Positions 1,604 to 14,860 of a stretch of 64,000 bases of DNA are shown here, piece by piece. Position 1 is the stretch's first letter. Each line of letters opens with the position of its first letter. The DNA lies in the NCBI GenBank assembly GCA_028532985.1, contig JANCIK010000003.1:196001-260000 (forward strand), written 5' to 3'. Under the pieces are notes generated by a model, which was not told the origin of the DNA, ran no database searches, and saw nothing but the letters and a program-made list of their open reading frames with translations. Made by a program: the position numbers and the translations under genes. The DNA comes from Stropharia rugosoannulata. Lineage: Eukaryota > Basidiomycota > Agaricomycetes > Agaricales > Strophariaceae.

Positions 1604-2323
1604 TTATGTCACATCGTCATGCCATGGTATATCGTGCTCGACGCGGAAATTATCCCACTCATGCCACTTATCATTCATCATCTGGTATGCTGGCGCCCAA
1701 TCCACGCAAGTATGTGTCCCCCCGCTTCTTTCCCTTGTGAAATTCCGTTTCATAAAATCTCCGGGTTCGAGGGTCACATCTGCAGCGCAAAGTGTCCACT
1801 GACGCAGGTAGTTGAAGCAATGCAAGATATGGGCCTGTCGTGCATGACCAATGGTCCCCCAGCCTTTTTCGATTGATCCTCGAATACTGCGCAGACAATG
1901 CAACTCGTGGAACATGGCGACTGCGAACATGCGTTCTTCTTGTCCGATGCGGATGTGCCCGTCTCCTAAAGTTGCCGTCCACAACCATTCAGCTTCAGCC
2001 TCGGGGGCAAGGATATCATAGTGGACGCTCTCCTGCACAGTCATCTTGACTAGTTTTTCCTCGATTGGCAGTCTTACTGGATGATCAGCTCCGATGTATG
2101 CTATTAGAGGCATATAAGCATTTGAACAGGACCGGTGGATTGGAACCTCACAATAAGAGTCAATCGGTCGCACGACGGGACTTCTTCGTTGCTGTAGTTG
2201 CAACAGATGCGTTAGGTCCTTGGAGAACATTAACAAACTCCATGTTAAATAGAATGAAGCCGCCCCTAGCAGACATAACGCAAAGAGATGAGGATTAACC
2301 ATCCTCTCTTTACGACTCTGCAT
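1604..2323 (-). CDS. UstYa-like (DUF3328) oxidase, copy A
   Basis: The 239-residue product is intronless from the Met at 2323. An N-terminal membrane anchor (about residues 11-32) is followed by a lumenal DUF3328 domain carrying both family motifs: HELHC at residues 139-143 and HILHC at 165-169, with FNYLRQ after the second and a conserved THTCVDW segment near 206. In ascomycetes, UstYa/UstYb-type proteins carry out oxidative cyclisation of ribosomal peptides such as ustiloxin, and the two HxxHC motifs are thought to bind metal. Here the motifs are intact, so activity is plausible; the substrate is inferred from the repeat-containing secreted protein about 5 kb away. An upstream in-frame extension of 27 residues exists but would precede the anchor and looks untranslated. 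Confidence 0.85.
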   Translation of the reverse strand: MQSRKERMVNPHLFALCLLGAASFYLTWSLLMFSKDLTHLLQLQQRRSPVVRPIDSYCEVPIHRSCSNAYMPLIAYIGADHPVRLPIEEKLVKMTVQESVHYDILAPEAEAEWLWTATLGDGHIRIGQEERMFAVAMFHELHCLRSIRGSIEKGWGTIGHARQAHILHCFNYLRQWTLCAADVTLEPGDFMKRNFTRERSGGTHTCVDWAPAYQMMNDKWHEWDNFRVEHDIPWHDDVT

Positions 2324-2916
2324 AGCTTCTGGTGTGGAGGGAGACAGCAACGACAAAGATGAACGAAAATTACGCAGGTGATGAAATCCCTGACATTCAT
2401 TCAAATATTCAAACTATTCGCCGCGCCTTCCTGCTATTCTCGTACGCTTCTTTGTCCAGAGCATCCCACCCATATCAAAGTGCCAAATGCATATGGTTCC
2501 TTCTTTGTACTGAAGGGCTTGGCTATTTTTGAGATCTCTAAGGCACGAGATTGGGTGCAATGGAATACAAGTTTTCACAAGGGCTTCGGGAGCTGCCCGA
2601 CACTTACCCACTGTCAGTATTTTATATAGATTTGTTTCGAGTCTGACTTGACCTATCACAACATTAAACCCGCTTGACATCCTACTTATCGACGCGTCGT
2701 CCTCGACACATATGTCATCCGAGGTCAAGCTCCCGATACTCTCATCGAGGTGCGAGAAAGCTGCATCGCGTAATGTCCAACAAGGTAAGCCGTGTAGCCG
2801 ACCCACAGACATTAAAATGATTCTCTTTCGTCATTGATATAGCACTCAGGCATCCACATCGCAGCCGCTCTCAGCGTTCAAGAACAGCAAGCCTCGCCTC
2901 AACCATATACAGAACG
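2324..2916. other. divergent promoter region between UstYa-like A and GNAT
   Basis: This gap separates two divergent start codons. On the minus strand there is a TATA-like run (TATATAAAA, about 2619-2627), roughly 300 bp ahead of the UstYa-like start. Open frames in both directions here have no family resemblance. Confidence 0.4.
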
Positions 2917-4018
2917 ATGCCCCATTCTTTTCACGTACAACGCGTCCTGAATCCCACAGGTGAATGATTAATTCTTCTCTACCTAGAGAACAGATGAGGT
3001 AAATTTCTCATTCTGTGTTACTTCCAGAGGCCCGACTCGCCGAGGCCGCGAACTTATTCACAGATCTCATGAAGAATAGTAAATGGTTCTGATATGAAAG
3101 GAAGATATCTTCCTGATACCCTGATTCGAATAGATTTAGGCGCTCTTAGTCTGGCTGGCGGGGAAGTCGGTTTAATGAATTATCAGGCACTGGCTCTTCT
3201 GCGCGCTGGATCTACATTCGGAGAGTATTATGAGGCGACAGACGACCATGGCAGTTTGGTAGGCTACACCATGTGGATGCCACCTGGCCAGGAGATGTTC
3301 AGCACGTACGTAGATTTAACATTTTATTTTAACTCGGATATTAATCATTTGCTTACTGTTTAGAGAGGAACAAAGACGTTTAGGGTTTAATGAATTCATG
3401 GGGATGTTATCTACCGAGGCTGAGAATTATTTCAAGACGAAAGTAAGTCACTATTCAAGCTGCTATCCTTCAAAGCTAGGCCTTACTTTAGGCAGTATAT
3501 TGCCCAATTTCCAGGTTTTGTAGCTAGTTTGATCGGCTCAAGAGTATAGATTTATTATATCCGGTAGCTGAAAAAAAACTCATATTCGGTGATCTCTAGG
3601 GAAAGATAGATTCATGGTGGCTTCACATGGCCATGATACGCCGGGACTATCAGAGACAAGGCGTGCTACGCTCTCTGGTTGACTTAGTCCGAAGAAAGGT
3701 AAGTTGCGCCATACTACATAAATTTATGTGAGCTTAAAACTATTGACAGGCTGAAGATGCCGGAGAATACTTAGCTACTTGCACAACTAACGACGATAAT
3801 GTATATTCTTCCAGAGATAACTTGATGAAATACAGCTGACGACCCTTCAGATTCGCGTTTACACAGGCCTCGGATTTGCCTACATGGGATCTACAGAGAT
3901 GGATTCCCCATGGGGTAAATGGCCTATACATGTTTTTAAGATGGATTTGGGAACTACTGAAGACGACAATGAAAATGTTCTGCTTGAACATTGGCAGCGT
4001 CTAATTCGACGCCGCTAG
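2917..4018 (+). CDS. GNAT-family N-acetyltransferase
   Basis: Eight exons give about 239 residues: 2917-2959, 3028-3078, 3140-3305, 3364-3442, 3496-3543, 3600-3698, 3750-3800, 3836-4018. All joins keep phase. The acetyl-CoA binding core is visible in exon 6 as WWLHMAMIRRDYQRQGVLRSL: a beta strand followed by the R/Q-x-x-G-x-G/A-like turn (here RQGVLR). The C-terminal strand with GLGF and the conserved ending FKMD fit the basidiomycete GNAT group. The acceptor substrate is unknown. The last intron is only 35 nt and the third exon's acceptor could instead be six bases upstream. In its setting the enzyme could be a tailoring acetylase of the neighbouring peptide locus, but that is inference; such GNAT genes are also common as stand-alone genes. 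Confidence 0.75.
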
Positions 4019-4352
4019 ATGTTTGTTAGATATAGTACCTTTAAGATTCTGGTAGTTATGAGACTCTTATATCAGCGTTAAGATCGTTTCTCTGAGATTG
4101 AGAGTACTTGAGGCACATAAAATAAGCCATCCCACACACAGCGAAGTCAGTTATGGTGCATCGTAGTCTACCTCTGCATACATCGGTTGTGCAAAGTGGG
4201 TCAGCTCCCTTGAGTCAAATAGAGCATCATAATGAGCTGTAATGTAGTGTGCGATTTTAAATCTACTATAGGATAAATTCATTGTCGAGTTCAATGTAAC
4301 CGCAGTAACCAGCAAAATCAGGTACCGCACGGTTTCTAAGGAGGTCGATACC

Positions 4353-4668
4353 ACGTCCTCTCAAGAAGAATTCGAAGCAAGAGTAATGGAGTAGGTAATT
4401 CGCAGGGTTTGGAGACCTCACACACATTTCACTCTGCAGGAAAAAGCTGAGGCAATTAAGCTCTACGGGGAATCTTTATCTACTAATTTTGTTTATGATC
4501 TACCCACAGCTCCGTTAAACAGCACAATTATATCCCTGGTTCCTCACACACGCTTGCCGTCCTGCGTCTTGGCAGATAATTATCTGCTCCGAAGCAAAGC
4601 AGTTGAGGCTGCGATTGTTAAGCGACTGAAATTAATGGGAGGACATTTCCGCTTTTGGGTAAAGTAAT
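4353..4668 (+). pseudogene. possible coding relic
   Basis: Two coding-looking pieces lie in sequence: one ending in EEFEARVME near 4390, then a donor-like GTAGGT, an acceptor-like CTGCAG at 4434-4439, and about 76 open codons beginning EKAEAIKLYGESL and running to a stop at 4666-4668. Joining the two pieces with the visible splice sites shifts the frame. I recognise no family. It may be a frameshifted remnant or a gene whose exons I cannot place. Confidence 0.25.
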
Positions 4669-5157
4669 ACTAAATATAGCTTAGCCCACTTTAGCATCAA
4701 AGCTGTGCTACACAGCCACCACCTTTCCTCATATCGGCTGCAACGACACAAGTTCGACATCGAAAATTAAACAAGCTCTTCGCGTATTAACGGTCAAGCA
4801 GTGCTAGGTGCTAACACACAAAAAGGATGCGTGCTCAGTTGCATACCTTGTCATCATCTCTAGGAGGTCCCGTTCAGGTGCAGAGAGAGTATAACATGGT
4901 ACAAATGTATGAGCGCTCTACTGGCTATACCATCATATGTTAATTATCAATCGTGGCAAATCAAAGCCTTACACAAGCCTCAAAGATGTTAATCACGTAT
5001 GGCTTGGGGCGGATTATTTCCGTCTCTCAAGGCGTTACGCGGACGGGGTTAGTAAGGGGACGAAAGGTAAATGATCAAATTACTCGTGTCAATTTCTTAT
5101 ATTATTCTCTGACCGTCTGTTGCAGATTAGGATTGATACGCACTAGCTCTCACAACT
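4669..5157. other. intergenic, nothing recognised
   Basis: Only short unsupported frames occur here, directly upstream of the But2-like gene. The wider gap from 4019 is broken only by the possible relic listed separately. Confidence 0.4.
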
Positions 5158-6175
5158 ATGCACCAACAAAACAATGAATTCGAGTCTTTGGAGCTGCTTT
5201 TGAAGGACAGAGACTATGCCGAAGTACAAGAAGGTACGGAGATATCATATACCAACACATTCGAGTCTGTCCTACAGTAACGTCTAGGTCGCTTGAAGAA
5301 CTTCAAGAATTTAAGAAAACCAGTCACCAAATTTCCCTTCATGACTGTCGGCATACTTCTCTTCTTTGTTCTGGATATTGCCGCATTTCTTGCAATTGGA
5401 AGACTCCTTTTGGACGCCAAAAAAACCATTTCTGACATCGACAAGCTAGAGTTTAGGAGCCCATACGTAGGACTAGACGAACTGTATAGGAGTCGCAGGA
5501 TCAACGTCACTCACTATGACGCGGTTATCAACGAACCACGATTTGCGACGCAAATTAGTCCAGGACAGCCGGATGAGATCTTTCCTATCGACGCTCACCG
5601 TTGGCTGAGCGACTTTGGACTCCTTTCTCCTCCAGATAGGCATTTCCAGGTCTCCAGTAAGAATGAAGTAGGTGAACTCGCCTCTTATTATGACACAACA
5701 AATGTAACTCCTTGTTCAGGTTTTAACTATCACCCAGTTCCATATCCTTGACTATGGGATGGAGAGCTGTAGTCTGAAAATTCGGCTTCCTGGATCTGAC
5801 GATGATTTACCTCACCCTTACTTGATCCCCTCGACGGCAGAAACTGTCCCCCTTACGATCTGTGAGATTGAGGCGAAGCGGCCCTTGAAGGAATCCGTTA
5901 TTTCATGGTCGAAGCGTCCGAGATGTATTCGTGACTTAGGCACCATACAAGCTAGAATAGGCGGAGAGGTAGAGCTTGAAAACTTCTCTTGCAAGTCTGG
6001 CTCCTTCATTGGATACCAAATTTCTTGCAACAACGATTCGCCTCATTGCGAAATCGACGTGTGGACAAATCAAAATGCTACGTGGGGTAAGTGGTTTTAG
6101 CGCTTTCCGATAAGAGCGTCTCTGAATAACAATACATTAGGCATCTTCATTGAACAGCAGCAGACCCTACTGTAG
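5158..6175 (+). CDS. membrane-anchored But2 C-terminal-like protein
   Basis: Four exons (5158-5233, 5288-5667, 5720-6086, 6141-6175) keep phase and give about 285 residues. A cytosolic head of about 35 residues is followed by one membrane helix (about residues 42-65, rich in Phe/Ile/Leu), making a type II anchor. The C-terminal half starts VLTITQFHILDYGMESC and contains further Cys residues; this layout matches the many basidiomycete proteins annotated as 'ubiquitin 3 binding protein But2 C-terminal domain'. Their function is unknown and ubiquitin binding has not been shown for them. Asn-x-Ser/Thr sites in the C-terminal part fit lumenal exposure. It sits between the GNAT gene and the repeat-containing secreted protein. 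Confidence 0.7.
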
Positions 6176-6711
6176 TAGTCATACGACTTACTGGTACATA
6201 CGGCGACTGGGAGGGTCTCCATTTATTCTATTCATCAAATAATCAGATATTTTGAGCCACTCCGATGACATGTAAGAGTTTCCCACGTCTGCCTTGAATG
6301 TTATCACCGCGCATCACGAAGGCCTTTGTGGCACGATGGGAATGCCTTGTGGTTATGGCATACGCTTGGTTCACACTTTATCGCATGGATAATCATGTTC
6401 ATAAACTGAGGAGTAAGCTTAGCCCAGCTCATGTTCCGCCTCTGTTTATGTATGACAACAGGAAAGGCCCGTAACTCACCGCGCACACGCACTTCGGATA
6501 CGAAAACAAAGCGATACCAACACTTATGTCCACCCACGAAGTCCATTTATACAACGCTGTCACTACTAATAGTTTACTGCAGTATAAAGTATAACTATAA
6601 TACAGTCAGTTCGGGGAAATGACAGCGCTCGCTGTACCCACTGTGTCGTGAAGTCGATCACTCTACGGCCGTTTAGGAGAGCTTGCCCAAATACATTAGG
6701 GATAATCATTT
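6176..6711. other. intergenic, nothing recognised
   Basis: Frames of 60-80 codons occur on both strands but show no motif or family resemblance. Confidence 0.4.
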
Positions 6712-7007
6712 ATGCGCTTGCTCTATGCGGATGTTACCACATGGCCCTATCCTTTTCTAAATGCTCACATGGACATTAGGCAGCATTCGGCCCCTAGCTT
6801 TGCATCCGAAAGCTATGGTGAGTAACTTAGTTATCCTCGGAGATCGGAAAATCAAAGGTCTACAATGTGGTTTATAATTTAGAGTATAACTCTGCCAATA
6901 AGCCATTTTGCAATGTACGTATAGTATCCACCGATGTATGGCAGCAACTACCTGAGCCTTTTAAAGACTTACACACTCAAGTGAAGCGCATAAAATATCT
7001 GTCTTAG
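6712..7007 (+). CDS. putative two-exon mini-gene, unknown
   Basis: An ATG at 6712 opens 35 codons ending in a perfect donor (TATG|GTGAGT at 6817/6818). The acceptor AATTTAG at 6876-6882 restores the frame for 41 more codons to the stop at 7005-7007, giving about 76 residues. The second exon (YNSANKPFCNV..., then VWQQLPEPFKDL) has the composition of real coding sequence. There is no signal peptide and no known domain. It could be a small gene of the peptide locus or a fragment of a longer degraded gene. Confidence 0.3.
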
Positions 7008-7256
7008 TGAGTAAACTGGGGTTTGCACGCTTTAAATCAATTAGAATATATATTGATGATCTGATTATAGTACTAGTACGCCCAAATCCCCAAAGTGTAA
7101 TAAATAGAACAATAGCTCCAGCTATCGCATTTCAGTCGCTTGCATTAGTTGAGCTTTGAATACTGACAGTGAATATTAGCTGTTTTCGCAATCAAATGGA
7201 TTGTACAGCCACTTACTTCAAAAATGAACGTTTAGAGCTGTGTATACTCCAATGAG

Positions 7257-7718
7257 CTAGTGCTCAGGGAGCGCACGCAACCAAGCGGTATCAACAGGCA
7301 CGTTTTCCGCAACGGAGCGCAAGAAAACAGTATCGGCCGGAGCGCCGTTATCAGCGGTCGTTCCCGTTTGACCATCACGGCGAAGCCACGCAGCGTCAAC
7401 AGGGGCACTCTGTTCGTCAGAACGTAAGAATACGGCGTCGACAGGGGTTCCTTGTGAATCAGAGCGTAAAAAGATTGTGTCGGTCGGATTCGTCTCTGGC
7501 TGAAGGGCACGACGCAAAAATGAAGTGTCTACTGGACCGTTCTCTGGCTGGAGGGAACGTTTAAGCCACGCAGTGTCGACCAGCGTGTCTAAAAAAAAGT
7601 ATAAGTGAAGTGTATGAAAAGGTAGGTACCTGGTCTTACCTGCAGGACTCTCGGTAATTGGCCTTGCAGTCACGGAAAGAAGGACAAGGCTAGCAAAGAG
7701 AGTGTAGTACTTGAACAT
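7257..7718 (-). CDS. secreted multi-repeat peptide precursor (candidate RiPP/KEP)
   Basis: Two exons (7718-7640 and 7588-7257, 51 nt intron) code 136 residues. Residues 1-18 are a clear signal peptide (hydrophobic core LFASLVLLS, then VTA). The rest is seven diverged copies of a unit whose conserved part is [P/L][V/T/A]D[T/A]x[W/F]L[R/K], with the aromatic at residues 34, 50, 66, 80, 94, 115 and 129. Spacers are polar (SLQPENG, ALQPETN, DSQGT, DEQSA and similar). Units 1, 2 and 5 end in KR, RR and RR, classic Kex2 sites; the others end in a single Arg followed by Ser or Ala. Secretion signal plus repeated short cores plus dibasic sites is the architecture of fungal dikaritin precursors and other Kex2-processed repeat proteins. 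Two UstYa-like oxidases flank it at about 5 kb. A non-modified repetitive secreted protein is the main alternative. Confidence 0.8.
   Translation of the reverse strand: MFKYYTLFASLVLLSVTARPITESPAGKTRYLPFHTLHLYFFLDTLVDTAWLKRSLQPENGPVDTSFLRRALQPETNPTDTIFLRSDSQGTPVDAVFLRSDEQSAPVDAAWLRRDGQTGTTADNGAPADTVFLRSVAENVPVDTAWLRALPEH
7260..7588 (-). repeat. seven-unit in-frame peptide repeat
   Basis: Within the precursor's second exon, seven units lie 14, 16 or 21 residues apart, counted between aromatic positions. Asp, the aromatic residue, Leu and the basic residue are kept in all seven, while spacers vary freely. The aromatic is Trp in units 1, 5 and 7 and Phe in units 2, 3, 4 and 6. This pattern suggests selection on the short core rather than on the spacers. 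Confidence 0.85.
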
Positions 7719-7760
7719 GTTTTATCTGTGGGTCTGGATTCTGGGAGGGGAAGATGAACT

Positions 7761-7769
7761 CCTTTTATA
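7761..7769 (-). promoter_or_regulatory. TATA box of the peptide precursor gene
   Basis: A strong TATAAAAGG lies about 43 bp ahead of the precursor start codon on the minus strand, implying a very short leader and a regulated, potentially highly expressed gene. A matching TATAAAAG precedes the seven-helix gene at 11517. Confidence 0.65.
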
Positions 7770-10305
7770 CCCGGTGAATGAGTCGAAGTAGAGCCCTACT
7801 GTGATCTCCATCACATATGAATATCTATTAACATCTATTGGTCGTAATCAAAGTATCAAAATGATCACCGTAATACGAAATAAATGCAGATTGACATCTC
7901 AGAAATGCCACCTATGTAAGAAGAGAGTCAATCGCCGTGATGCGCAAGTCAGCGTCTCTTTCCGGATGCCGTTAAGAATCAAGTAACACCTGTTTGATGC
8001 ATGCGTTGATTACACGGAAAAATCTTTCATGTTTGATTCATAGGAAGAATAACGCCTTTCGAATGATCTAAATCAAGCATAATGCTATTAAATCTATCTG
8101 AGCAAGGGTCGGTTACCTGTGAGAGCGTAGTTGAATAAACACTTCCATGTTTTACATTAATTTCAACGCAGTGCCGGGCAACAATATTCATATATTGACA
8201 TAAAGAGAGTAAGATCTGCTCTCACACTCATTTATTTTTGTCTGCAAAGTAGACTTAACTCCAATCCAGTCAGGCTACGGATACTGACCGCTTTCAAAAT
8301 GAGCTGTCAGACTTGTTCCGTTTTACAACGGATTTGTCCAAAGTACAGCAGATAAAGTACCAGAATATTTTACCAGTTAATATTTTTAGTCTAATAGCCT
8401 TCTTTCTGGCCAATGGAGGCTGGTACTTCTTATCCTTTTAAGTCTACAGACTTGAGCAAGTTGGCAACTGCGTTAGTACTATTTTTGTCTGTATTTATTT
8501 ATAGCTCACTTATACTTACACTTGGCGGTGAGGCTTGGCCTCTTGGCTTTGAGTCCCTGATAGCCGTTGGATGCCTTCGGCCCTTTTAGCTCCCAGTGCA
8601 CAATTAGTTTATTTGTGCACAATATACTTTGAGGCAGTCTCGAAAAACAGCTATTACCTTTGTCAATAGCTTCATACTCTGGTAGAGAGACATTATAACC
8701 ATTCCTATTTACCAGAACACCTTCCCATTGAAATTCCAAACGTTGTGTGCAAGAAAAGTCAGTAGTAAACATAGTGATCTATCATGTATCCATATGAGTT
8801 GTTCGCTTCAGAAATGGCTGGAAAGATAAGATGTTGAAGAAATACAACACTTAATGAAATGTACATAAATCATGACAACGTGTTAGTACATTTATCACTA
8901 TGTACTCGCTGAATTGCCGTAGAAAAACGGTGGCGATTTTCTCATGTATAAAGGGGATAAATATATACATACCTCATCCATCATTTCCCGCCGCTGATCT
9001 TTACATGTCATATACTTATGTAGGCTGAAATAAGACAGATTGCTCCTCGGTCCGCGGACTTGAAGTCTTCAGTTTACTACCCATTTCACCGCGTAAGAAT
9101 GAGACTGGTCATCTTGAAGCCAGTGCCGCTGGGAAGATCACAGAAGCTTTCGGTCCGACTCTAGCAGAGAATGGTCAGCGCTCAGCCATTACCACATGAC
9201 TGTGTGCTGGCACGCGAAAAAATAGCAGGCCATAATTACTTCTGACTCCTTCACAATGCCGTACAGCAGAAGTAACGATCTACAGAGAGTATACAGTGAT
9301 TAGGAAGATTCTTTTGTCATTAAATAACACCGTACGAAAAAAAAAAATCTGGGCAGAAGCTCAAGACAGTAATTTACCGATTGCTGAACGTAGGACTCTT
9401 AAATCGTTTCCTTTTACTTTCTCCATCGAAACGCTGACTGCGCATAGAATATCTCTATATAAGGCTACAGATACTTGACTTCCTTTGATCGACGAGAGTT
9501 TTGAACGGAGGGAAAGCGAAGATAGAGCCTCATTTAAATCTTTTCAGAGAAGTGCTGTCGTACCCGCTTTGAAACCTCCACTGACATATGCATTTATCGG
9601 TCATCAACAGGCACAAGTAAAAATGTTTACATAGATGACATTGCAGAACGTAATCCAGCAGGAAGTAATCCAGATTAATTTGCAGTATATCTTGTTGCCA
9701 TACCGTTGCCATGCCAGGTTTTTTTTTTTTAGCGCTCCACGACAAGTGGTGTGCAACTTAGTATGTTTGATTCACGCTGATCTACCGTCGTTTGGGCTTT
9801 CTCCCCTCAAATTTCTATTTTCCCGCAACAATCACCTTGAATATATTTCTCTGACATAATGCTGTTACATTGAGTAAACAGAATGGACCCTTTCAGAGGA
9901 ACGTATCAGGAGTATGACAATACTTTCTGTGTCCTCATACCCTGTTTTGAGTATAGTCTGCAATATATCTTATAGTAATTATCTCTGCGAACAACGCAAC
10001 TAAAAAATAAGCCGACGACTAGCATCATAACAGCCCTATAACCTTTTCTTTAATTAAAAAACATATGGTCCACTGCCATTATGCTGGAGTATAAATTGAA
10101 AGCTTAAACAACTACGAATTTATTATTGCCAACAGGTTAACAAGGGGCGAATAATTTACTTCTAGTATTATCCCTGGAAGGCATTCCTCATCCGAGCATA
10201 ACACTACGTATATGTGGAATAGTGAAATGCTATACGCGATATTATAGTCCTCTCTACCGGTGAGAGAAAAGAGAAGTGACTTGAGCGCTTAGAATTTTAA
10301 AACGT
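7770..10305. other. AT-rich gap with coding scraps only
   Basis: No gene could be supported in these 2.5 kb. Two items stand out: a minus-strand frame of 88 codons at 8506-8772 without any recognisable motif, and a plus-strand TATAAAGG near 8946 followed by a 41-codon coding-looking piece (LLPISPRKNE..., ending at a stop at about 9199) that has no start codon. Poly-A and poly-T runs (9339-9348, 9720-9730) are present. Confidence 0.4.
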
Positions 10306-11517
10306 TTACGATGATCCAAGGCTCTTAGTGCTTCCGTTCCATTTCTCTGTAGCGGCCTCGCCTAGCGTTGCTGAACCGTGACTGTATCCACCTTGACTTT
10401 GAAGCTCGATACCCGACGCGTGCGCAACTGGCCTCCCATTGATAAGAAATTCCACGTTGCTCTGTGCCTGGGTTATCACTTCCCTACCCCAAGCGCGCCC
10501 AGTAACGACGCGAAGAACTATGAGCTGAGGCGAAATACACTGCAAAGAATAAGTTAGTTAAAGTCTGCATCTACGTTGGTTCTGAGGGACGTACTGTAAG
10601 CTTCGCCCAAACCTGACCAAAGGAGATGGAGATAGGGTTTCCCAGAGCGTATGGAATCAAGAACATGATCCCAACGAAGCTGTAGGGGGCTGCCGACTCG
10701 ATCAGCATGGACGCAACACTGGTGTACATTCTGGCACTATCACGACCGAGTGCCCTCGACACTGCTTTTCCGAGCTTCATAAGACGACTGACAATCAGAA
10801 CAGTCGTAATGATGTTAAGTGCGATCGTAATGGTGTAATACGGAGTGCCAAAGTTGATCGTTTTTCCGTGGAAAAAGTTGCCACCGGGCTTTCCTGCAAG
10901 GATGAGCTCTATGATGGCCAATGCTATCAAGGACGTCAGCTCTGAAAGTCTACATGGACTATACGCTAGTACTTACAGAAAGCAGTAAGATATGCAAGCA
11001 CGGGCAGGACTATAACACTGTAGCGCGAACCGTAAATGACATAGAGGCGGTAGAGCTGTAGTACTAAATTAGATTTACCCTGAAAAACTGTGGTATCTAC
11101 ATACCAATAAAGCGTCGCCCATGAATATCATGCATACGACTGAAGCGGACCCCATAGTTTGATACCAGACAGAGGTCTGGGTGGCGATAAATCCTGGAAC
11201 GCCTCCCGGGCCATTGCGACCAACGATCCACATGAGTTCACCCCATACGGCGTTGACAGAGATATCAACGGTAAGGAGTAACAAAAGGATGGTACTATAG
11301 ATGGCGAAGAATTTTCGGCTCTTGGCTGAATTGTGATTATTCCTCCGAAGCAAACCCTGCAGCGTCAGAAAGTACATGACAAGGTTTACTCCTACATAGT
11401 TCCAAGGTAATTAGCTGATGGAATAGGGTGGATTAATAGAATTTTACCATAAAGGATGCCGCTCATGTAGCTTCCAATATAGAAAGAGTGTTCAAATTCA
11501 GTGAGCGCCGATGCCAT
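10306..11517 (-). CDS. seven-helix membrane protein, DUF6534 type
   Basis: Five exons (11517-11448, 11391-11105, 11055-10977, 10923-10595, 10539-10306) give about 332 residues. The layout is that of the very common basidiomycete seven-TM family (DUF6534 and relatives): a start near EFEHSFYIGSYMSGILYG, then helices with SKSR..., a WxQxMG-like segment, GDALLLYRLYVIYG, and a last helix with LIPYALGNPISISFGQVW before a soluble tail. Function is unknown; receptor or transporter roles have been guessed. In intron 3 the nearest AG would create a stop codon; using the next one, after a good CTGAC branch point, restores the family sequence. The gene lies between the peptide precursor and UstYa-like B and shares a TATAAAAG promoter with the former. 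Confidence 0.8.
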
Positions 11518-11563
11518 GATGATAGAAGTATGTTGGTGGAGGAAACAGAGGGGGCTTCTCTTG

Positions 11564-11571
11564 CTTTTATA
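11564..11571 (-). promoter_or_regulatory. TATA box of the seven-helix gene
   Basis: TATAAAAG on the minus strand lies about 47 bp ahead of the start at 11517, the same motif and spacing as the peptide precursor promoter. Confidence 0.55.
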
Positions 11572-12043
11572 CGAGTCCACAGCGCGGATTTATGCCTCCT
11601 CAAAACCGCGAGAGTTGTGCTTCGAAAGACAGAGAGCAGTCTAGTGTCGTAATCCAGTATAATTTTTTGGGAACTTTCACGAGAGCCAGCTTTGCCAGTG
11701 TGGGGAACCACAGAAGTTTGAGTGGAGATCATGCATAAAAATAATGGTGGTATTCATTCGTAGTGACCCAAGACCATGCGAGAAACACAGGGATAGAGAC
11801 CAAGTCGCCCGATTTAGTCTCGAGGTCACTATGTCGGTAATTGACAAAATTCGAAAATAGCAATCCCGTCATACCTCTTGATGGGTGAGCCTCTGGGAAA
11901 AGTGCTGTAAATGTAAATATACGCATGCAAAGCATACAGATATAATGGCCACATTATGACCGAACAGTGATTTCGTCCTGTGTTTATCAATCGAATGGAA
12001 GCTAACGCACTGCGGAATACCTAAGGATATCAACACCCCCGAC
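11572..12043. other. divergent intergenic region
   Basis: It separates the divergent seven-helix and UstYa-like B genes. Minus-strand frames here are short and unsupported. Confidence 0.4.
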
Positions 12044-12711
12044 ATGCCACCTTTCTCTCGGCTCAAGGCGATACCGCTCACTGGCATAAGCCTGGTCTTC
12101 ATCGGCCTCAGCGTGTTAATCAAGTTCGCGGGGACAATATGGATTCACAATCAAATCGCGGAACTGACACGGGAGTACAGTGAGTAAATCTGCTGGTAAA
12201 AAGTCTATGTTTTCTTAGCCGTCGTGGGATTTTGTTCCCAGGTTATGCTGGGGATGATTATCCTGAAGTCTGGCCTATAGAACGGAAGAGCGTGTTGATG
12301 ACTTTCGATAATCCCAAACACTTTCGTCTGGATACCAGGGACGGTGCAGCAGAATGGAACGCCATCGTCCCCGGCGACGGAGTCATACATTTGGGACCTC
12401 ATCACCAGCCATACACGATTTCTATGATGCATCAGCTCAAATGCCTTGACATTATACGCCAGGAGATGGTCCGCGGAGATCACGTCAGCGAAAGACCATC
12501 GACGCTCGCCCGACACTGTCTCAACTATGTCAGGCAAATGGTCATGTGTCACGGTGATATAGAGCTCGAATCTTTTCAGTTCGCCTCTCACAAAAATCCG
12601 ATAGACTGGCATGGAGTTTATGAGTGTAAGGACTGGGAAGCAGTGTACAGGGAGGTTCAGCGGAATCAAGCAGAACATGTGAAGTGGCTGGCTAGTGGAA
12701 ACCGGAATTGA
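12044..12711 (+). CDS. UstYa-like (DUF3328) protein, copy B
   Basis: Two exons (12044-12179, 12242-12711; 62 nt intron) give 201 residues. Exon 1 supplies the N-terminal membrane anchor (about residues 10-33) and exon 2 the DUF3328 domain: MMHQLKCLDIIRQ at 107-119, ARHCLNYVRQ at 135-144 and YECKDWEAVYR near 172-182. Both metal motifs are degenerate compared with copy A. The first reads H109-x-x-K-C113 (second His replaced by Lys). The second keeps only H137-C138 (first His replaced by Leu134). Similar reduced motifs are common in basidiomycete members, so function cannot be ruled out. A pair with one complete and one reduced member resembles the UstYa/UstYb pairing seen in dikaritin clusters. 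It converges on the siroheme gene, 263 bp away. Confidence 0.85.
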
Positions 12712-12974: not shown

Positions 12975-14860
12975 TTACAAGCTTTCCCAGCCCACATCTA
13001 GTCCCTCTCGCATTTTCCACTGATCCCCGCCCAACCAACTGCTGACTCTCGATTCGTCCTGACTTTCTCCATCCTCATCTAGAATTCCCATGTCCCCTCG
13101 CCCGTACAAAGCCAAAACAGACCAGCCGACAACCATCATGCCAGGGGGACGTTGCTCACCACTGCTTTCTAGGGCCCTGACTATGTTTTGCAATGTCGAG
13201 GAGATGACGCGCTGATCTGGCATAGAAGCCCTCTCTATGATTGCAATGGGGGTGTTGAGGGGGTACGCCTGTCCATCGCGACGACGGCCCTCGTTCACCT
13301 CATCGACAAGAGCGCTGACAACTTGTTGTATGCGCGCTACGCCCATAAGGATTACTATTGTCTGCCCGCGTCTGTATCCGGGAAGCTGAACTTCTTTGCC
13401 TTTTCTTCCTACGCCAGTGCATATGGTGAGTGATTCTGCAGCCCCACGCTGGGTTACAGGTATTCCGGCAAACGTCGGTGCAGCGAGTGCAGAACTGACG
13501 CCGGGTATCACAAGAGGTTCGAAGCCGTGTGAACGGAAGTATAGCACCTCTTCGCCCGCCCGACCATACACAACCGGGTCACCTTGTTTCAACTATGATG
13601 GACAGGTATGAGATTGGATCGATAAAAAGAGTTTAATAACGAGAATGATATACATACCCGAACCACGGTCTGTCCCCGCTTCGCAGCCACGATAGCAGCT
13701 TCCATCATCTCTATTTGTGCACCTTCAGCATTGCCCGGAAACTTTCTCGCAATGCGGACTTCAACGTGCTTCGGTATGAGCGATAATACGGCATCTGGTA
13801 CCAGCTTGTCAGAAAGTACTAAATCTGCCAGTTGCGTAAGCGCAGTATGAGTAGCAGTCGTGAGGAGCGACGGGTGTCCTGGGCCTGATCCAACTAACAG
13901 AATGCGACCGACTTTGGGAAATGGTTCAAAGTGCAAAGAGGCCAGTTGAGATTGAGGGGCTGGATGCTGGTTTGAGATAATATTGGGTAATAGAGCATTG
14001 GAATCCGCCAGAATACTTTCAACTTCGGCCCCCGACATGGATGCAAGTTTAATGATGGGCCAATATTCGCTAACTTGAGCGACCCATTTGATACGTCTGC
14101 TTCTAATTTCCAAAGGACTTTCCGAGTTGCTTCGAGGCGGAACAGGACGATTAGGCGTTATGATATCGCCTTCTTCGACAAATTCCTCATCATCTGCATG
14201 TTCTACAACAGAGCTTGCCCCTGTTGTCTTCGCCATGGCGCGCATATAACCGACATTCTCTACAGCTGCACCAACTTCCCTTGGTAATTTGGATACGATG
14301 TCTCGACGCAATCGCGCAGCCATACGACAGCCTTGACCATTTGTCGTAATGCCTACTTGGAGTGACGTTTTTTCGCCAGTCTCGTGGTGTATGAATCGGT
14401 GGGATGAGGTAAAAGAGAAGTCACAGAGGTCGGGCATGTCCGTCGTGTTGACCGGGATATTTCGTGCCTTTAGAATACGATAGATAGCTTCCGCAGAGGA
14501 TCGAGTACGCTTAGACGTTCCAGAGAGCGTGTCTGTGACTGCTGCAAGGGCTATGCCTGGGTTCGCCTGCAGAAAGGCGTCCAGGCGGTTTGCTTCATTT
14601 GCAGGCGATGATGAACTCGGCAAGTCTTCCCAATCGAAAAAGCTGACTTGTTGTTGTTGGATTCTCCATTTGAGCTCCTCGCATGCAGATTTTACTCCTC
14701 CGTTCGCTAATACAAGCACTGTAGAGTTTGCTTCAAGGGCTGCAAAGGCGCGCGAGGCAGCAAGTGTGCCTGAGCCAATGATCAAAATGGCCTTGCTTTG
14801 GAGCTTAAAGGACAAGATAAGAGACGCCCCTCCGGTGGGTGCAGGATATAGATTGCCCAT
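12975..14860 (-). CDS. MET1: fused precorrin-2 dehydrogenase / uroporphyrinogen-III C-methyltransferase
   Basis: Two exons (14860-13658, 13592-12975) give about 606 residues. The N-terminal third is a MET8/CysG-type siroheme synthase NAD-binding domain (AILIIGSGTLAASRAFAAL near residues 23-41, then an NTTDMPDLCDFSF segment). The C-terminal half is a SUMT-type SAM methyltransferase: VGSGPGHPSLLT near 320, then LKQGDPVVYGRAGEE right after the intron, and IPGVSSALAAPTFAGIPVTQRG, the family's SAM-site signature. The enzyme methylates uroporphyrinogen III twice with S-adenosylmethionine and probably oxidises precorrin-2, supplying siroheme to sulfite and nitrite reductases. In budding yeast these steps are on separate proteins, Met1 and Met8. 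I infer the dehydrogenase activity; the ferrochelatase residues were not checked. Confidence 0.9.

Follow-up and report, generated by a model that had tools for sequence, protein, structure and literature searches.

A candidate peptide-modifying UstYa gene cassette in four dispersed copies in the genome of Stropharia rugosoannulata

A 64,000-nucleotide stretch of the basidiomycete Stropharia rugosoannulata (assembly GCA_028532985.1, contig JANCIK010000003.1, positions 196,001 to 260,000; hereafter "the window", on contig C3) contains a gene for a small secreted protein of seven repeated units, a candidate peptide precursor, set between two genes of the UstYa (DUF3328) family. We consider it probable, at roughly two chances in three, that this locus is a peptide-modifying cassette, present in four dispersed copies, whose substrate is a secreted peptide and which is a UstYa-based variant of the dikaritin kind. 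Sequence comparison across the genome shows that two paired UstYa genes recur together with genes for a But2-like membrane protein, a GNAT acetyltransferase and a seven-helix membrane protein.

The genome search covered 48.0 Mb in 20 contigs and scored best candidates only, so copy numbers are lower bounds. At least 22 UstYa exon matches were found, 20 of them above the cut-off, and 17 UstYa genes were modelled in 11 loci (A to K). With the But2-like protein of the window as query, at least three other copies appeared, at C1:1110260, C9:886000 and C8:1113661 (contig and position), all beside UstYa pairs. The But2 profile places copy B above its cut-off and copy C below it (21.7 bits) and gave no match to copy D; copies C and D are tied to the window protein by sequence search. 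Sites B, C and D also carry relatives of the window GNAT and seven-helix protein, in different orders:

Cassette A (the window): UstYa1, GNAT, But2, precursor, seven-helix protein, UstYa2
Cassette B (C1:1.10 Mb): seven-helix protein, UstYa2, precursor, GNAT, UstYa1, But2, three precursors
Cassette C (C9:0.89 Mb): seven-helix protein, But2, two precursors, GNAT, UstYa2, seven-helix protein, precursor, UstYa1
Cassette D (C8:1.11 Mb): GNAT, seven-helix protein, But2, UstYa1, UstYa2

Could these genes be together solely through local duplication history? The four loci are paralogous, and UstYa, GNAT and seven-helix genes belong to multicopy families, both of which speak for chance neighbours. Nevertheless, this explanation is very improbable. 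The cassettes lie on four contigs with differing gene orders and strands, their proteins are mostly 24–42% identical between loci (more only across short stretches), and all four But2-like copies found adjoin UstYa genes. When locus A was compared with the ten other UstYa loci (open reading frames of at least 40 residues, E 1e-4), all matches were cassette genes or their antisense shadows, and no flanking gene was common to A and any other locus. The linkage has outlasted rearrangement and deep divergence, which argues for retention, and on these sequence comparisons the chance-neighbour reading is disfavoured. The initial annotation had left room for coincidence because of distances of about 5 kb and seemingly unrelated families between the UstYa genes; the recurrence of these families with UstYa pairs at three other sites makes coincidence unlikely and largely removes that doubt. 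It had also proposed a compact peptide pathway. This is partly supported, since the UstYa genes form a coherent locus that includes a secreted peptide gene, and since two clear Kex2-repeat precursors lie near other UstYa genes of the genome; "compact" undersells a locus that is one of four paralogous cassettes.

The association can also be expressed as a statistic. A UstYa neighbourhood was defined as the DNA within 10 kb of a UstYa match, in total 0.55% of the genome; a match with internal stops (C8:1219118) was left out of the 17 modelled genes and yet counted as a UstYa place. All three non-self But2-like copies fall in such neighbourhoods (binomial P 1.7e-7), as do four of nine non-self GNAT copies with the locus E protein as query (P 1.1e-7) and 4 of 16 non-self seven-helix copies (P 1.6e-6; the seven-helix genes of D, G and H, seen by local comparison only, are left out), although these values overstate the independent evidence because A to D share ancestry. 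With the window GNAT as query, one of two non-self copies lies in a UstYa neighbourhood. A genome search with PF13673 yielded six matches, none at UstYa loci, but says little because the GNAT exons of the window were missed too. Two 10-kb places with a seven-helix gene and no UstYa gene, on C2 and C11, gave no UstYa, But2-like, GNAT or precursor match by BLAST, and a relaxed scan of them for two-exon genes (all intron phases) returned one and four starts, judged spurious. Thus, the seven-helix family is not confined to UstYa loci. DUF6533, another seven-helix family, has at least 35 matches, one of them within 10 kb of a UstYa match (C3:4035332); so many matches are in keeping with an Agaricomycete.

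The genes of the window, with exon joins and gene models made by hand and Pfam run on the hand-built proteins, are as follows:

1604 to 2323, minus strand: UstYa-family gene A1, single exon, 239 amino acids, N-terminal membrane anchor judged by eye (PF11807, 58.8 bits)
2917 to 4018, plus strand: GNAT acetyltransferase in several exons, hand model (26.8 bits, cut-off 23.6)
5158 to 6175, plus strand: But2-like protein, exons joined by hand (PF09792, 30.1 bits, cut-off 24.2)
7257 to 7718, minus strand: candidate precursor, a secreted seven-unit repeat protein of 136 amino acids when spliced (hand model, repeat analysis)
7589 to 7639, minus strand: intron of the precursor gene, 51 nucleotides, phase 1, splitting an Asp codon directly after the signal-peptide exon
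10309 to 11519, minus strand: seven-helix membrane protein with relatives in the genome, approximate gene model
12044 to 12711, plus strand: UstYa-family gene A2, 201 amino acids as modelled, intron near 12182–12240 (PF11807, 65.4 bits)

Both UstYa scores exceed the family cut-off of 25 bits. A1 and A2 each lie less than 5 kb from the precursor gene, at distances of three and two genes. The But2-like protein has one N-terminal transmembrane segment (judged by eye) followed by the But2 C-terminal domain. The seven-helix protein, as modelled by hand, matches no Pfam family at E 1; its paralogue at B shows a ceramidase likeness below threshold (16.2 bits against 32.5). Among the genes modelled in 1604–12711, Pfam searches of the hand-built proteins revealed no tyrosinase, methyltransferase, P450 or peptidase.

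What distinguishes the two members of a UstYa pair? A1 carries two intact HXXHC motifs (HELHC and HILHC), and A2 has lost both (HQLKC and LARHC). The same division holds in all six modelled pairs, which include those of loci G (C1:0.54 Mb) and H (C3:4.03 Mb): one member has two motifs and its partner none, with remnants that read HQLKC or HQLRC in A2 to D2, QQLYC in G2 and HQLYC in H2. The single UstYa genes I, J and K have two motifs each. In the UstYa genes of E and F an intron interrupts the second motif, which is HLEHC in F by a scripted join and HLEHC in E as read from the sequence, where the scripted join gave none. In a tree of the 17 proteins, A1, B1, C1 and D1 form one clade and A2, B2, C2 and D2 another (support 94/92 each), with A and B closest in each (90/90 and 88/86); none of these supports is at the starred level, and C and D are unresolved within the clades. 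G2 and H2 group firmly (100/100). G1 and H1 are mutual nearest by BLAST among the matches listed (81%), with no resolved tree fork. The double HXXHC motif is suspected of contributing to the active site, and every lichen signature gene is said to have it (PMC12048977). No earlier description of a UstYa partner lacking HXXHC was found in the open-licence literature; as far as searches go, the motif-less partner appears to be a new regularity within that literature.

A further membrane-anchored protein, which begins MxxxYQKLSQADD, lies beside the UstYa pairs of G (C1:538720–539064) and H (C3:4028233–4028559). The two copies are 41% identical, and the G copy has no Pfam match. This protein may take the part that the But2-like protein has in A to D.

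The precursor gene is a genuine repeat gene: the unspliced frame aligns best with itself at lag 14, 21.7 standard deviations above 60 shuffles, far more than chance would give. The spliced protein contains seven units with the pattern [VTA]D[TA]x[WF]L[RK]. Across the 21 unit pairs, the seven-codon unit cores differ at a rate of 0.81 per synonymous site and 0.30 per non-synonymous site; most changes are silent, which shows purifying selection on the amino-acid motif. The N-terminus is hydrophobic and reads as a signal peptide, judged by eye and hydropathy only. The initial annotation had described this secreted seven-unit protein, the two flanking DUF3328/UstYa proteins and the GNAT, But2-like and seven-helix genes between them, and all were recovered, the GNAT and But2-like proteins above their cut-offs and the seven-helix protein with no Pfam family. 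That annotation mentioned no introns; the precursor and A2 genes have one each as modelled. Its assumption of Kex2 cutting is not supported in the form given. Dibasic sites follow three of the seven units (units 1, 2 and 5; residues 36, 52 and 96), the other four ending in a single Arg; the precursor thus does not fit the pattern of Kex2-processed repeat proteins (KEPs), in which Kex2 sites separate the repeats.

The precursor has no match to a Pfam family at E 0.1, and no second copy was found in the genome search. A database of 5.8 billion proteins yielded a sole relative, P0001 (E 1.1e-11, 43% identity), and a second search with an alignment as query found no further ones. Seven units were counted in P0001, six of them ending in Arg and none followed by a dibasic site. 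To judge from its protein letters only, P0001 appears to enter the repeat exon through a splice acceptor in the same place, with the Asp codon split. The two proteins have the element D[TA]x[WF]LR in common, and the linker varies. Since dibasic sites follow three of seven units in one protein and none in the other, the shared element is one Arg following [WF]L. P0001 scores 41.7 bits against the UBM ubiquitin-binding family (PF14377, cut-off 23.3). A UBM identity was rejected for the window precursor: the score was read as a chance likeness of FLRALPE repeats, because the window gene encodes a secreted form. As an observation in its own right, the score of these DxxFLRALPE repeats could mislead annotation. 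A farnesylated mating pheromone was likewise rejected, as the window precursor has no C-terminal CaaX.

Similar small genes accompany other UstYa genes. In all, 18 candidate precursor genes were modelled by hand at 7 of the 11 UstYa loci. At A, B and C the first exon encodes a signal peptide and ends in a phase-1 intron. Locus E (C12:671725–672250) and locus F (C8:1869799–1870570) encode classic Kex2-repeat proteins, with EYKR/EFKR/EWRR units and ALGAFGKR units, respectively, and have the second-exon leader SKRRIFNYEPDL in common; no homologue of the F precursor was found in the protein database. At B there are four tandem candidate genes with PA[LEM]RL near the end. At C, SKRQDGPA is common to two adjoining candidates, and the third candidate contains PDSANxxFRR twice. 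Loci G and H hold gene arrays with a single core per gene around EP[NTDA]R. E and F agree in precursor type as in UstYa type, and so do G and H; in the But2 group (A to D), the precursors differ from locus to locus. Three H genes have uncorrected ratios of non-synonymous to synonymous differences (pN/pS) of 0.46–0.55, and the C pair has one of 0.54, which gives mild coding support. Genes of the H type had no match elsewhere in the genome, in a search that missed the fourth H gene as well.

How specific are the scans behind some of these candidates? A strict two-exon scan of ten UstYa regions, 200 kb in total, gave 10 hits, against one hit in 94 kb of C3 around and including the window (in the seven-helix gene) and two in 600 kb of Markov-shuffled DNA. 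The strict scan missed the window precursor gene and the B genes, and it picked non-preferred splices at C9:894923 and C3:4026866. With relaxed settings, eleven UstYa regions (213 kb) yielded 21 starts, of which 15 belong to the candidates and 6 do not, and 81 kb of C3 sequence elsewhere yielded 1; the settings were tuned on these loci, and the real-DNA control is small. In locus A the relaxed scan returned four signal-peptide starts: one is that of the precursor gene, and the others, including one within the seven-helix gene, look spurious. More than one exon join is possible at C3:4026866, C1:533010 and C1:1113203. The shared phase-1 introns at G and H are circular as evidence because the scan that found these genes required phase 1; the precursor genes of the other five loci (A, B, C, E and F) had come to light without any such requirement. 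Three UstYa singletons of another clade, with the double HXXHC motif (C12:1900768, C8:104094 and C3:938193), had no precursor in two-exon scans of 20 kb around each.

Three candidates were set aside. A 29-residue open reading frame at D (C8:1110339) is weak and may overlap later exons of the seven-helix gene on the opposite strand; C9:883135 gave no model from a two-exon scan with a wider flank; and the hit at C8:1862244 looked spurious.

Three observations concern the surroundings of these loci. First, three tandem small secreted proteins (C12:662672, 665115 and 667211) with the pattern PMPMAVxPNHVQxGxVFTAKPxHFxP lie upstream of the locus E UstYa gene; the second and third are ~60% identical to the first, which has no Pfam match. 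Second, in locus F a 563-residue open reading frame with a zinc-knuckle-like CxxC..H..C (C8:1867210–1868898), which by eye resembles Gag, separates the UstYa gene from the precursor gene and may explain the distance between the two. Third, a probable dispersed repeat is common to loci F (C8:1858920–1859896) and H (C3:4030774–4031684), where stretches in several frames are 94–98% identical in amino acids.

Several findings weigh against a cassette that modifies the window peptide, in addition to the shared ancestry behind the binomial values. The dibasic sites just described are in the minority in the precursor and absent after the units of P0001. Tyr is absent from the precursor core, with none past residue 18. 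Precursor sequences are so divergent that those of A, B and C show no evident homology, and two-exon scans found no precursor at cassette D or at the single-gene loci I, J and K. The introns of the H array are alike at 0.87–0.94 and the coding parts at 0.81–0.89; introns as alike as the coding parts, or more so, point to young duplicates and a weak coding signal. The candidate peptide arrays rest on DNA sequence and hand joins, and 12 of the 16 non-self seven-helix matches lie away from UstYa genes.

Some of these findings would fit a repeat protein left unmodified by the UstYa pair, either an ordinary secreted protein or a precursor of linear Kex2-type peptides, with the cassette acting on another substrate. 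Most units end in a single Arg, and the core has no Tyr. In a 2020 survey of 1680 Basidiomycota KEPs, only 103 (6.1%) had DUF3328 within their 15 nearest genes (PMC7329392), and linear KEP peptides are known from Agaricomycetes (PMC9769878). We regard this alternative as unlikely. A secreted small-peptide gene was modelled at most UstYa loci, the relaxed scan of locus A offered the precursor and otherwise only spurious-looking starts, and precursors of the H type were matched only at their own UstYa locus, with the limit on that search given above.

Modification by the UstYa pair remains the favoured reading. The seven-helix protein raises a different alternative, a signalling module in which a UstYa-matured secreted peptide is perceived by the adjoining seven-helix protein. 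Genes of this family are present at A, B, C (two), D, E, G and H, such that each candidate-bearing locus has its own peptide and its own seven-helix paralogue, except F, where no such match was found. KEPs with pheromone signatures are reported from Basidiomycota (PMC6339444). However, the majority of non-self family members away from UstYa (12 of 16) speaks against this role, the protein reaches no Pfam cut-off, and a role in export or in immunity would suit it equally well. We consider a signalling module quite improbable.

How might a peptide-modifying cassette work? The precursor would enter the endoplasmic reticulum, where the membrane-anchored UstYa pair may oxidise side chains in the repeated DTx[WF]LR core; A1 would be the metal-binding oxidase, and A2 its non-catalytic or altered partner. 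With no Tyr in the core, oxidation would fall on Trp or Phe, or else on aliphatic residues. The peptides would be freed after a basic residue, by Kex2 where the site is dibasic and by another protease elsewhere, and then exported. The GNAT may acylate the peptide, and the seven-helix protein may transport or sense it. A bolder version, which we consider less likely than not, is that the loci represent a separate class of fungal modified peptides, with an obligate UstYa heteromer (a double-HXXHC and a motif-less member) and a But2-like scaffold, fast-evolving and mostly single-core precursors multiplied by gene duplication, and an exporter or receptor of the seven-helix family peculiar to each locus. 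If so, repeat-based mining would miss most such precursors.

The window locus resembles those of the dikaritins (ustiloxin, phomopsin and asperipin-2a) in having a signal-peptide precursor with repeated cores beside UstYa/DUF3328 genes, and that of ustiloxin in having two such genes (PMC7329392, PMC9233826). Unlike in the dikaritins, the core has no Tyr, dibasic sites follow a minority of units, and But2-like, GNAT and seven-helix genes lie nearby; as for the two HXXHC motifs of UstYa proteins, one member of each pair has both and the other neither. The ether cross-link usually, although not always, forms at a Tyr of the core. Known cross-link chemistry uses Tyr, which occurs in 65.6% of the repeats of DUF3328-linked KEPs (PMC7329392). 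The window protein also resembles KEPs in being secreted, with short repeated units and some dibasic sites (PMC7329392, PMC6339444, PMC9769878). By sequence, classic KEPs are present in the same genome at loci E and F. In contrast, the window protein has its three dibasic sites after seven units, and the candidates of B, C, G and H mostly have a single core per gene in tandem arrays; one KEP pipeline required at least three repeats (PMC6339444). The distances of three and two genes between the window precursor and the UstYa genes fit the mean KEP–DUF3328 distance of 3.09 genes across all fungi (PMC7329392). The number of UstYa genes, 17 modelled and one fragment, is similar to that of Pleurotus ostreatus, which has 16 UstYa-like genes, six of them developmentally expressed (PMC8893723).

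Lichen DUF3328 clusters provide another comparison. They likewise contain DUF3328 pairs, in one clan, and have no recognised precursor, which is called a mystery; the authors of that report suggest a precursor outside the cluster or one with a single core (PMC12048977). DUF3328 proteins are also known for hydroxylation and chlorination (PMC12048977). Unlike the lichen signature genes, all reported to have two HXXHC motifs, each pair here has a motif-less partner, and small single-core candidate precursors are visible. No paper on DUF3328 together with But2, and no description of the cassette, of the pairing of intact with motif-less UstYa proteins or of the single-core arrays, was found in the open-licence literature.

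What would follow from these observations? First, if small two-exon peptide genes are the substrates, the precursor gap, seen in the contrast between the numerous UstYa-like genes of mushrooms and the few Basidiomycota KEPs near DUF3328, and in the lichen mystery, would have a simple cause: a single core per gene, tiny exons and an intron following the signal peptide. Second, a search rule can be offered, namely to look for a UstYa pair with a But2-like gene and then to seek a signal-peptide exon. Third, the reason why one partner per pair has lost its presumed active-site motifs is a testable question about UstYa chemistry.

Two minor features flank the cassette of the window. Straight after A2, at window positions 12978–14860, lies a housekeeping flank, a gene like those for sirohaem synthase or uroporphyrin methylase. 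Just upstream of the window, C3:194232–195716 holds a 495-residue frame of low complexity, rich in Ser, Thr and Ala.

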